64,000 bases of DNA from Methanobacteriota archaeon (GTDB taxonomy: Archaea > Halobacteriota > Methanomicrobia > Methanomicrobiales > Methanoculleaceae). This document shows, piece by piece, positions 9,513 through 39,512 of the stretch. A model generated the notes under the pieces. The model ran no database searches and was not told the DNA's origin. It saw only the letters and a program-made list of their open reading frames with translations. Made by a program: the position numbers and the translations under genes. The stretch lies in NCBI GenBank assembly GCA_016841955.1, contig JAENYE010000001.1:508025-572024 (forward strand), given 5' to 3'. The number at the start of each line of letters is the position of its first letter. Positions within the stretch are counted from its first letter, which is position 1.

Positions 9513-9998
9513 ATGAAGCAGAGAGTGCTCTTCATCGGCACGAACAACGCCGCCCGGACCCAGATGGCGGAGGGCTACCTCCGCGCCCGATACGGCGACC
9601 GCTACGAGGCCTGTTCTGCCGGAATCGCCCCCACCGCCCTCGATCCGGCGGCCGCAAGGGTAATGGACGAGATCGGGGCCGGTATCGCCGGGCAGCGGGC
9701 GAAGGATCTCGCCCTCTTCGACGGAAAAGAGATGGACTACGTGGTCGCGCTTTGTGGTGGAGGCGTCTGTCCGATGTTTCCCTGGGCGAAGGAGACGATC
9801 CACATCGACTTCCCGGACCCGGCCAGGGCCACCGGGACCACCGACAAGGTGCTTGCGGCCTACCGGCGGAGCAGGGACGCGATAGCCGCCTGGATCGACG
9901 GGCGGTTTGGGGAGCGACGGACGGGACGTCCGGAGCTTAAGAAAACGCGAAGCGTTTTCGAGGACGATGTTCGGCCCGCAGGGCCGAACGGAGTTTAA
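9513..9998 (+). CDS. Low-molecular-weight phosphatase / ArsC-like protein lacking the catalytic Cys
   Basis: A 161-residue relative of thioredoxin-type arsenate reductases and LMW protein tyrosine phosphatases. The P-loop, expected as CTHNAAR, reads GTNNAAR: the nucleophilic cysteine codon is GGC (Gly). The two later Cys positions (ALCGGGVCPMFPWAK) and the acid loop (FPDPARATG) remain. It cannot work by the normal Cys-phosphate or Cys-arsenate mechanism, so it may be a binding protein or decaying. The last 20 or so codons (KKTRSVFEDDVRP) are read through a dispersed hairpin repeat, so the native stop was probably lost. Compare the frameshifted arsC at 31027-31433. Confidence 0.85.
   Translation: MKQRVLFIGTNNAARTQMAEGYLRARYGDRYEACSAGIAPTALDPAAARVMDEIGAGIAGQRAKDLALFDGKEMDYVVALCGGGVCPMFPWAKETIHIDFPDPARATGTTDKVLAAYRRSRDAIAAWIDGRFGERRTGRPELKKTRSVFEDDVRPAGPNGV
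9941..9960. repeat. Hairpin repeat, family 1 (single copy inside a coding tail)
   Basis: GAAAACGCGAAGCGTTTTCG is the exact reverse complement of the hairpin present three times at 15011-15187. Here it is translated as part of the C-terminus of the ArsC-like protein. A second hairpin core (GGCCCGCAGGGCC) follows at about 9973. Confidence 0.85.
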
Positions 9999-10047
9999 AT
10001 ACCGTCAGGTGCGAGGGAAGCGAGAGGGGGCATTCAGCGCAACCCCT

Positions 10048-14954: not shown

Positions 14955-15010
14955 CGCGGTCTCAGTAGTTCACCGATTCCGGCGTCCGGCAACGACGGAG
15001 CGTCGCTGCT

Positions 15011-15187
15011 CGAAAACGCTTCGCGTTTTCTCATGCTCCGGCTCGAAGGCCTTCGGCCTTCTCAAGCTCCTGCCTTCGGCCCGCCACCAGTCGCAACTCG
15101 AAAACGCTTCGCGTTTTCTCATGCTCCGGCCTTTCGGCCCGTCGCACCCTACGGGGAAGTCGCTGCTCGAAAACGCTTCGCGTTTTC
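15011..15187. repeat. Cluster of three family-1 hairpin repeats
   Basis: CGAAAACGCTTCGCGTTTTC occurs exactly at 15011-15030, 15099-15118 and 15168-15187, each followed by TC and an ATGCTCCGG or GAGCTCCGG link into a second hairpin (GGCCTTCGGCC, CCTTTCGGCC or CCCTTCGGCC types) and GTCGCA. Both hairpins carry TTCG loops. The cluster fills the gap between DUF1805 and cofH copy 2 and contains no gene. Centre spacings of 88 and 69 bases and self-complementary repeats rule out CRISPR. Confidence 0.9.
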
Positions 15188-15217
15188 TCGAGCTCCGGCC
15201 CTTCGGCCCGTCGCACC

Positions 15218-16306
15218 TCACACCATCTCGTAGGTCGTCGTCCGCTGCCTGAGGATCCGGCCGACATCTCCGGCGATCCGCCGCATCTCGCCCGGGTCCA
15301 GGTAGTCGGCCCCTTCGCCGCCGGCGTCGACCGAGACGTCGTCGCAGAACATCGTCCCGCCGAGGTCGTCGCCGCCCGCCAATAGCCCCAGCTGCGCCAT
15401 CTTCTTCCCGACCTTACCCCAGGAGATCTGGATGTGGTCGAAGTTGTCCAGGAAGAGACGCGCGACCGCAAAGAGCAGGTGGTCCTCACGGCCGGTGGCA
15501 CCCGCAGGCGCAAGCCCCTTCCTGTAGAGGGCGGTATTCTCATGGAGGTATGAGAGCGGCACCAGTTCGGTGAACCCGCCGGTCTCGTCCTGGATCTCCC
15601 GGAGGATGCCGAGGTGCCGGACCCGGTCTTCAGGCCTCTCGCAGGAGCCGTACATGATCGTCGCCGTCGACCGGACGCCCATTCCATGCGCCTCTTTGAT
15701 GATCCGGACCCACGTGGCGGTGTCGCACTTGGCCGGGCAGATCACCCGCCTGACATCGTCGACCAGGATCTCCGCCGCAGTGCCCTGCAGAGTGCCGAGG
15801 CCCGCATCTCGCAGGCGATCGATCGCCTCCTTCGTCGAGAGACCGCTCCGTTTCGCCGCCCAGGCGATCTCGTCCGGGCTCGCCGTGTGAATGTCCACCC
15901 CGGGCGCGACCTCCCGCACGCACGAGATGAGGTCTGCGTAGGAGTCGAGCGTGTAGTCGGGGTGCACCCCCGAGAGCAGGCAGATCTCGGTGACGTTCCG
16001 GGCCACGGCCTGGCGCGCCTTTTCCCGGATAGCGTCCCTCCCGTCGCAGAACGCCTCCGGGTCATCCGCCCGCCGCCCGAACCCGCAGAACCCGCAGAGG
16101 TTCTTGCAGACGTTGGTGACGTGGATGTTCTGGTTCCGGACGTAGGTGACGACATCCCCTACGTTCCGTTCGCGGAGCTCGTCCGCGGCGGCGGCGATCT
16201 CCCAGACGCCGCGGTCGCGCGTCTTAAGGAGGAAGACGGCCTCCTCCTCCGTGAGCCGGTGGCCGGCGAGCGTATCATCGAGCAGGTCATGCAGCGAAAA
16301 CGGCAT
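15218..16306 (-). CDS. cofH: FO synthase subunit 2 (CofH), copy 2
   Basis: 362 residues, parallel paralog of 13432-14526. The cluster motif is CKNLCGFC (CX3CX2C); LSGVHPDYTLDSYADLIS and DIHTASPDEI are CofH signatures. The Met at 16306 aligns with the start of copy 1. It shares with copy 1 an identical 84-bp block (16124-16207) and a 33-bp block a little upstream in the reading direction. Signal peptidase lies just upstream on the same strand, 28 bases away. Whether both copies act in FO synthesis or one has changed substrate cannot be seen. Confidence 0.9.
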   Translation of the reverse strand: MPFSLHDLLDDTLAGHRLTEEEAVFLLKTRDRGVWEIAAAADELRERNVGDVVTYVRNQNIHVTNVCKNLCGFCGFGRRADDPEAFCDGRDAIREKARQAVARNVTEICLLSGVHPDYTLDSYADLISCVREVAPGVDIHTASPDEIAWAAKRSGLSTKEAIDRLRDAGLGTLQGTAAEILVDDVRRVICPAKCDTATWVRIIKEAHGMGVRSTATIMYGSCERPEDRVRHLGILREIQDETGGFTELVPLSYLHENTALYRKGLAPAGATGREDHLLFAVARLFLDNFDHIQISWGKVGKKMAQLGLLAGGDDLGGTMFCDDVSVDAGGEGADYLDPGEMRRIAGDVGRILRQRTTTYEMV

Positions 16307-22064: not shown

Positions 22065-22097
22065 ATCATGTTAAATTATACATGATCTATCATGTAT
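22065..22097. promoter_or_regulatory. CATGAT palindromes at the acs promoter (candidate operator)
   Basis: ATCATGT..ACATGAT (22065-22086) overlaps a perfect 9-bp inverted repeat ATACATGAT-CT-ATCATGTAT (22078-22097). The sites lie about 20-50 bases downstream of the TATA box, where transcription start would fall, and also contain a second TATA-like TTAAATTA. A repressor bound here would block initiation of acs. The regulator is unknown. Confidence 0.55.
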
Positions 22098-22099
22098 AA

Positions 22100-22290
22100 T
22101 CAGGGGGCGACCACGCGGGGGAGAGTCCCCGAGATGGTTACGCTCCCGGCGGAGACCGGCAACGAGTGCCGGCGACCGATATGGACGGCAGCACGACCAC
22201 GGGCCGACCGATCGGAAAGACGACGGACCCGGAGATTAGCCGCTTTTGCACGGTTTCGGAACCCGCACGGGGAACGACCGGAGCAATCCG
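22100..22290 (+). ncRNA. Candidate structured leader RNA upstream of acs
   Basis: About 190 GC-rich bases lie between the promoter palindromes and acs, with no plausible gene. Read as + strand RNA they form successive hairpins: GGGG-AGAG-TCCCC near 22117, CCGG-CGGAGA-CCGG near 22146, CCGGCA-ACGAG-TGCCGG near 22157, GGTT-TCGG-AACC near 22252 and CCGGA-GCAA-TCCGG near 22279 with a GNRA loop. No known riboswitch class was recognised. It could be a regulatory leader, or an independent small RNA. The call rests on hairpins I found by eye. Confidence 0.4.
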
Positions 22291-25557: not shown

Positions 25558-25735
25558 CTCACGCGAAGAGCGCGAAGCCGCGAAGAGAACTATCAATGAC
25601 AACCAACCGATCTTCGCGTCCTTCGCGGCTTCGCGTGAGGTCGTACCGCCATCTGCACCAGGCAACCTCACGGGAAGAACTTCGTTCTTCTCATCCTCTG
25701 GTCCCGTGGAACGTCGCATTCGCGTGAGGCCACAC
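25558..25735. repeat. GCGAAG-type inverted repeat followed by a modular hairpin variant
   Basis: 25558-25640 has arms CTCACGCGAAG...GCGAAGCCGCGAAG and CTTCGCGTCCTTCGCGGC... around a short AT-richer spacer. It is followed at about 25671-25690 by GGAAGAACTTCGTTCTTCTC, the same hairpin layout as family 1 but with a different stem, then a second stem (GGTCCCGTGG) and CGTCGCA. The 284-base gap between the OFA gene and the RNase III-like gene contains these repeats and no gene. Confidence 0.7.
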
Positions 25736-39383: not shown

Positions 39384-39512
39384 CTTCACGCGAAGTGCGA
39401 TGGCCCGAAGGGCCGGAGCTCGAGAAGACCGGAGGTCTTCGAAGTGCGAGCGTGAGAAGAATGGTAGGCGGGTGTTTTAATCTCCTTCGCGGTCTTCGCG
39501 TCTTCGCGCGAG
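39384..39512. repeat. Nested repeat: modular hairpins inside a GCGAAG-type inverted repeat
   Basis: Outer arms TTCACGCGAAG (39383) and CTTCGCGTCTTCGCGCGAG (39494-39512) belong to the GCGAAG family. Between them is GTGCGATGGCCCGAAGGGCC, GGAGCTCGAGAAG, then the stem GAAGACCGGAGGTCTTC, the family-1 layout with a different stem from the copies at 9941 and 15011. The gap between arsR and pdxT contains no gene. Confidence 0.7.

Follow-up and report, generated by a model that had tools for sequence, protein, structure and literature searches.

A mobile double-hairpin DNA unit of about 45 nucleotides, largely confined to Methanoculleus

What is the modular hairpin repeat at 15,011 to 15,187 of this stretch, whose stems change while loops and layout stay, and how did it come to be there? 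The window (the whole stretch of DNA analysed, 64,000 nt) belongs to an archaeal genome of 2.43 Mb (9 contigs), which the unit scan and genus-level searches place in Methanoculleus by inference. The initial annotation had listed four places of similar layout (9941, 15011-15187, 25671 and 39400) and had tentatively attributed the changing stems either to selection for structure or to a hairpin-targeting mobility enzyme.

Layout, stems and loops of the unit

The repeats are copies of a ~45-nt double-hairpin DNA unit, with two tiny, very stable hairpins each, and all four places hold copies of this single unit (Table 1). On the strand showing GCGAAGC, the grammar is NGCGA[C-stem A-G]GAGnnnGA[G-stem B-C]GA; linkers are nearly fixed and stems variable yet complementary. 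Hairpins of class A and class B follow one another in alternation, head to tail; GA borders both sides of each hairpin, and after the final GA comes another unit or unrelated DNA. A stems are drawn from one set (GTTCC, GGACG, TGTCC, TGCCG, GGTTC, GGCCC and others), and B stems from a second (AAAACGC, AAGACC, AAACCC, AAGCC, CACC, AAAATTGC). The GA borders of the A and B hairpins could form tandem G.A mismatches, and pairing appears to extend beyond them, as linker base n3 and the base following the second GA covary (C-G, T.G, T-A, G-C), with pairing in 107 of 136 distinct units. The unit ends are NGCGA and the C of hairpin B, without a GTAG tag, and reading of the ends by eye revealed no clear terminal inverted repeats (5' NGCGAC against GCACC or GAAAAC as the reverse complement of the 3' end); a MITE of a DDE transposon was rejected for want of such repeats. 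The reverse complement of the A flank is CGTCGC, but A belongs to an A+B unit, not to a single tagged palindrome. Since GA-flanked hairpins of any kind were just weakly above a Markov null in the window (11, against a null mean of ~4 and range of 1-7), the linker grammar is required.

Table 1. Units and flanking repeats in the window (positions in nt of the 64-kb stretch).
Feature	Position	Strand	Composition	Basis
Second unit of pair	9963..10012	+	A = GTTCGGCCCGCAGGGCCGAAC (9969-9989), B degenerate = TACCGTCAGGTGC	Absent in L167, L169
Complete unit	9913..9959	+	A = GGACG GGA CGTCC (9918-9932 with closing C-G), linker GGAGCTTAAG, B = 9941-9959	Absent in L167, L169
Nested part	15012..15095	-	Unit with B = GAAGGCC GAA GGCCTTC (15045-15061) inside A hairpin of older unit (B = 15012-15030)	Comparison with G012 (L175/L176), L176 flanks
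Complete unit	15100..15146	-	A = GGGCCGAAAGGCC, linker GGAGCATGAG, B = GAAAACGCGAAGCGTTTTC	Sequence
Complete unit	15169..15215	-	A = GGGCC GAA GGGCC, linker GGAGCTCGAG, B = GAAAACGC GAA GCGTTTTC	Sequence, covariance-model match C3:523184-523239
Unit	25674..25718	-	Imperfect A (GTTCCACGGGACC), linker AGAGGATGAG, B = GAAGAAC GAA GTTCTTC	Sequence, hairpin
Left flanking repeat GAAG	39392..39395	.		One copy (AAAG) at unit-free G003 site, L187
Complete 45-nt unit	39396..39440	+	A = GGCCC GAA GGGCC, linker GGAGCTCGAG, B = GAAGACC GGA GGTCTTC	Empty site in G003 (L187), covariance-model match C3:547420-547473
Right flanking repeat GAAG	39441..39444	.		Sequence, orthologue comparison

Within the window, an identical hairpin (GAAAACGCTTCGCGTTTTC) lies at 15012-15030, 15100-15118 and 15169-15187, with further hairpins at 15045-15061, 9941-9959, 9969-9989, 25674-25690 and 39424-39440. 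The interval 15011-15187 does hold hairpins but cuts off the array, which extends to 15215, and the copy placed at 25671 is real, though it is a full minus-strand unit with an imperfect A stem and slightly different coordinates (Table 1), flanked by the two arms of a separate hairpin, CCTCACGCGAA and CCGTGAGG. Before the unit at 15100..15146 stand the left half and the loop of a different A hairpin (CTTCCCCGTAGGG). The inserted unit of 15012-15095 has lost part of its own A hairpin, which G012 retains whole. The unit at 9913..9959 is read through by a coding frame that extends the upstream gene. This gene (9513-9998) has a short C-terminus in G008 (GKFGK-stop), replaced here by an element-encoded 24-residue tail. 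A second intergenic repeat, of GCGAAG-type octamers (CTCACGCGAAGCCGCGAAGAACGCGAAG...), occurs at 25560-25645, 39385-39395 and 39485-39512, and units are often inserted directly after its GCGAAG. An unrelated A+T-rich perfect hairpin (ATTATACATGATCTATCATGTATAAT) was seen at 22075-22100.

Stem complementarity was measured on segments picked by linkers alone, a fairer test than a hand-chosen set of 28 units because that set leaned towards well-paired units. The 49 distinct 15-nt A segments were 82% Watson-Crick paired, against 59% with 3' halves shuffled (maximum 66% in 1000 shuffles); the 17-nt B class was paired at 73% against a shuffled mean of 61%, and the 19-nt B class at 91% against 75%, while the 13- and 14-nt CACC classes of B vary little and hence test pairing weakly. 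In the hand-chosen set, changes on both stem sides were found in 40 cells, against 12.6 shuffled. Stems that differ yet stay complementary, as first described, are thus confirmed among genome copies and also across species. The step from compensatory change to selection for structure fared less well: the one stem change noticed between orthologues at the reported locus is an uncompensated mismatch (G005, L177), and the intergenic copies of L029 and L035 diverge too much between species for a stem change to be traced in place. Complementarity may be kept either by selection or by hairpin-templated repair.

The GCGAAGC-type mini-hairpin pointed out at the start is the key feature of the unit, whereas the supposed TTCG tetraloop is a triloop, TTC on one strand and GAA on the other. 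GNA/GNNA loops account for 79 of 86 loops in own-genome loci (B 58/60, A 21/26), against 35 of 486 (7%) other hairpins of the window, and the listed B stems have a C-G closing pair. Triloops of the d(GNA) type are a known stable DNA family that prefers a C-G closing pair, the melting temperature being 68.9 °C for d(C-GCA-G) and 48.9 °C when the closing pair is G-C (PMC5815330), and the unit loops fit this ultra-stable family. Tetraloops are mostly GNYA (20, against 3 GNRA) and are therefore a poor fit to selection for RNA GNRA loops. Folding of the 15003-15219 array beat shuffles with a z of -3.96 for DNA and of -3.35 for RNA, and folding energy alone therefore cannot separate the two. The window gave no Rfam match and no tRNA.

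Copy number, polymorphic sites and nesting

A stem-independent linker pattern gave 61 matches in the genome, against 4 for a reversed-pattern control, and the genome-wide structural motif search that had been proposed, run as a covariance model built from 28 units, found at least 139 places at E ≤0.001. Methanoculleus genomes carry well over a hundred copies each, and copy numbers in draft genomes are underestimated because N runs and contig ends fall inside arrays (N runs or contig ends at L016 and L026/L060, and at the ends of C22 and C28 of G012). One unit type (fixed layout, one hairpin B, free linker bases), searched across 84,980 prokaryote species, was found in at least 78 stretches; among the matches listed, all were labelled Methanoculleus or unclassified Euryarchaeota/Methanomicrobiales MAGs, and viral contigs gave no match for the one unit type searched. 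Among 150 genomes of the order, most element matches were in Methanoculleus, with 1 to 7 in a few genomes elsewhere, and a DNA search agreed. The family is therefore largely confined to Methanoculleus. The 1.6-Mb genome G119, from a different genus of the family to which Methanoculleus belongs, gave 34 model matches, which may reflect wider ancestry or else transfer. In G020, units that are nearly identical form long tandem arrays with periods of 45 and 46 nt (C1:1923558-1923967, C1:1429830-1430435), a satellite-like growth of single copies.

Comparison of orthologous sites in sister genomes, which yielded two single-unit filled/empty pairs, shows that the units are mobile. At 39396-39440, the own genome and G008 read CTTCACGCGAAG[TGCGATGGCCC...GGTCTTC]GAAGTGCGAGCGTGAG, and the sister species G003 (L187) reads CTTCACGCAAAGTGCGAGCGTAAG without the unit; the two versions differ by the entire 45-nt unit, which has GAAG on either side. 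An extra unit interrupts hairpin CTGCCGGAACGGCAG in G008 (L179) at the reported locus; this hairpin is continuous in G012 (L175, L176). As 15012-15095 already holds a unit nested in hairpin A of another, G008 shows three nesting levels. The reported array is missing at the orthologous sites of G004 (L178) and G013 (L181), and the pair at 9913-10012 is missing at those of G008 (L167) and G005 (L169). Slippage alone, which had been named as a possible refutation, is insufficient for the dispersed copies, because solitary whole-unit insertions exist with no source nearby. Two or three in-frame units were also seen within a long ORF (829-2652) at L076 1310-1490 (own genome C8, ~275300-275490), between two conserved-looking stretches; the protein seems ~65 residues longer, and L159, from another genome, is arranged similarly.

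When units were removed in silico and their flanks joined, a GA-bounded hairpin was restored for 21 of 154 units, against 5.7 with right flanks shuffled (maximum 11 of 100), and for 12 against 1.8 (maximum 6 of 40) in a stricter test; an earlier version without end-repeat handling gave a weaker result (11 against 3.6 at stems ≥6). All 12 strict nested cases were in host orientation and none reversed, with junctions in the loop as scored in 6, 3' of the loop in 6, and in the 5' arm in none. Examples are L035 (CGTTCC GAAG[unit]GAAG GAACG), L029 (CTGTCCGCA GGA[unit]GGA CAG) and L016 (CGGACG GAA[unit]GAA CGTCCG). Insertion sites are purine-rich, of GAAG/GGG/GGA type, and often repeated at both ends, while insert ends are nearly always alike (NGCGA ... 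hairpin-B C). Matching end repeats exceeded shuffles among 134 units (3-nt, 22 against 9.5, maximum 17; 4-nt, 23 against 8.2, maximum 17), a match that is partly composition because flanks are purine-rich (GAAG, GGG, GGA) and repeats short; the repeat is clear at 39392-39444.

By gap type, clusters lie in 26 tandem, 19 convergent and 5 divergent gaps (n=50), against 21, 7 and 10 gaps of the window (n=38), approximate counts from a simple home-made gene caller that omit matches lying within predicted genes or at the edge of a locus. In the tandem gaps, orientation relative to the genes was the same in 12 and opposite in 14. Placement and orientation are as expected of tolerated mobile DNA, and argue against a transcript role tied to a neighbouring gene.

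Proposed movement and its alternatives

We think it probable that the units are non-autonomous ~45-nt mobile DNA that moves in an ssDNA-like or cruciform manner, by means of a structure-reading enzyme and with hairpin loops as targets. The element would adopt a single-stranded or cruciform form, and a putative enzyme would recognise the GNA-loop hairpin, probably with the GA.GA mismatch pair, open a target hairpin 3' of its loop and join in another unit. Arrays would grow by repeated insertion into earlier copies and by tandem duplication, and stems would be free to drift while pairing, because structure and linkers, and not stem sequence, would be read. A more specific proposal is made tentatively, as a possibility that we do not favour: an archaeal transposition system whose trans-acting enzyme would recognise DNA shape (GNA-loop hairpin plus GA.GA internal pair), not stem sequence, and insert 45-nt units directionally 3' of hairpin loops, the element being its own preferred target. 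Hairpin-targeted mobility, raised in the initial annotation, is supported by empty sites and junction tests. Against the enzyme reading, neither Y1_Tnp nor RVT_1 consistently accompanies the element in the genus genomes checked; terminal inverted repeats are not clear, end repeats are short in purine-rich flanks, and the single-unit filled/empty pairs number just two.

The main rival is enzyme-free template switching, in which a replication fork halted by a hairpin would switch to another copy through GAAG/GGG microhomology, copy one unit and return, and hairpin-templated repair would keep stems perfect without selection. The purine-rich microhomology at unit ends, insertion in host orientation, the G020 arrays of identical units and the searches for Y1_Tnp and RVT_1, which found no enzyme, agree with this account, but the nearly constant ends of the insert, and solitary insertions with no neighbouring source (39396-39440 for one), count against it, and we regard it as rather unlikely. 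A structure kept for an RNA role, as transcript terminators or 3'-end stabilisers, would suit the enrichment of clusters in convergent gaps (19/50 against 7/38) and their depletion in divergent ones, as well as RNA folds that beat shuffles; it is made improbable by the unbiased orientation to tandem genes, with no fixed orientation to the upstream gene, by GNYA in place of GNRA tetraloops, by the absence of an Rfam match, and by orthologous genes that manage without units.

Two enzyme-based routes seem very improbable. In the first, the units would be REP elements mobilised by the tyrosine (Y1) transposase associated with REPs, the partner first suggested; REPs are likewise short intergenic palindromes with variable complementary stems (PMC3733652). 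PF01797 (Y1_Tnp), however, is missing from the own genome and from almost every element-rich genome of Methanoculleus; the 7 of 35 genus genomes that have it mostly contain few elements or none (G002, G014, G021, G023, G024; exception G010). Nor is the A+B pair a single GTAG- or CGTC-tagged palindrome; the REP/RAYT candidate was rejected on the absence of Y1_Tnp where elements abound. Retro-mobility, in which an RNA version of the unit would enter target hairpins by reverse transcription, is a route suggested for Allomyces mitochondrial double-hairpin elements (PMC2800124), but was rejected since RVT_1 (PF00078) is found in just 1 of 12 Methanoculleus genomes and is missing from nine element-rich ones. 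A single reverse-transcriptase-like gene was seen in the own genome (G000:C9:10365-10934, 583-codon frame), and not in the 11 other genus genomes checked.

Relation to known elements and significance

Mitochondrial DHEs (Allomyces, Schizosaccharomyces) and sponge RHEs resemble the unit in being tens of nucleotides long with two hairpins, mainly intergenic and occasionally in genes, patchy between close relatives and without a known enzyme (PMC2800124, PMC10085805). The unit differs from them in its archaeal chromosome, well over 100 copies, fixed linkers, d(GNA) loops and insertion 3' of loops, and it has short end repeats, whereas Allomyces elements lack flanking duplications (PMC2800124). 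Yeast mitochondrial GC clusters (GC42) are also mobile hairpin units, of ~42 nt, with short target-site nucleotides (AG), merging and shuffling (PMC4478555), but in GC42 loops vary and stems are conserved, whereas in the archaeal unit loops are fixed and stems vary. The unit may be said to work like the mitochondrial double-hairpin and GC-cluster elements, a likeness that implies no kinship, and it is not filed as a member of those families because it lies on an archaeal chromosome and not in mitochondrial DNA. REP/BIME/REPIN elements with RAYT share short modular intergenic palindromes and alternative complementary stems (PMC3733652); the archaeal unit is set apart by the missing GTAG tag, the absence of a Y1 transposase from element-rich genomes and the head-to-tail alternation of A and B. 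These features, too, separate it from a REP-type palindrome.

IS200/IS605 ends have a hairpin at each end and no obvious inverted repeats, with oriented insertion beside a short target. The unit shares the hairpin at each end, the lack of obvious inverted repeats and the oriented insertion, but has no Y1 transposase, short repeats at both ends and a hairpin target. The recurrent potential G-quadruplex repeat of Methanomicrobiaceae, which is intergenic, multi-copy and present in Methanoculleus (PMC8044849), is a different, G-run sequence, and from unit flanks it appears to host some units. No description of the unit family was found in the open-licence papers searched, where bacterial REPs and the mitochondrial double-hairpin elements and GC clusters were the nearest kinds.

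In mitochondria, very small mobile elements that consist of hairpins alone and have no obvious enzyme have long been a puzzle, and here the case is a chromosomal, archaeal one, in an element that nests in itself and can lengthen proteins. Each genome has well over 100 copies, many sister species have been sequenced, insertions are polymorphic, and ends and targets follow an explicit structural code. How such elements move therefore becomes testable by comparative genomics and simple biochemistry.
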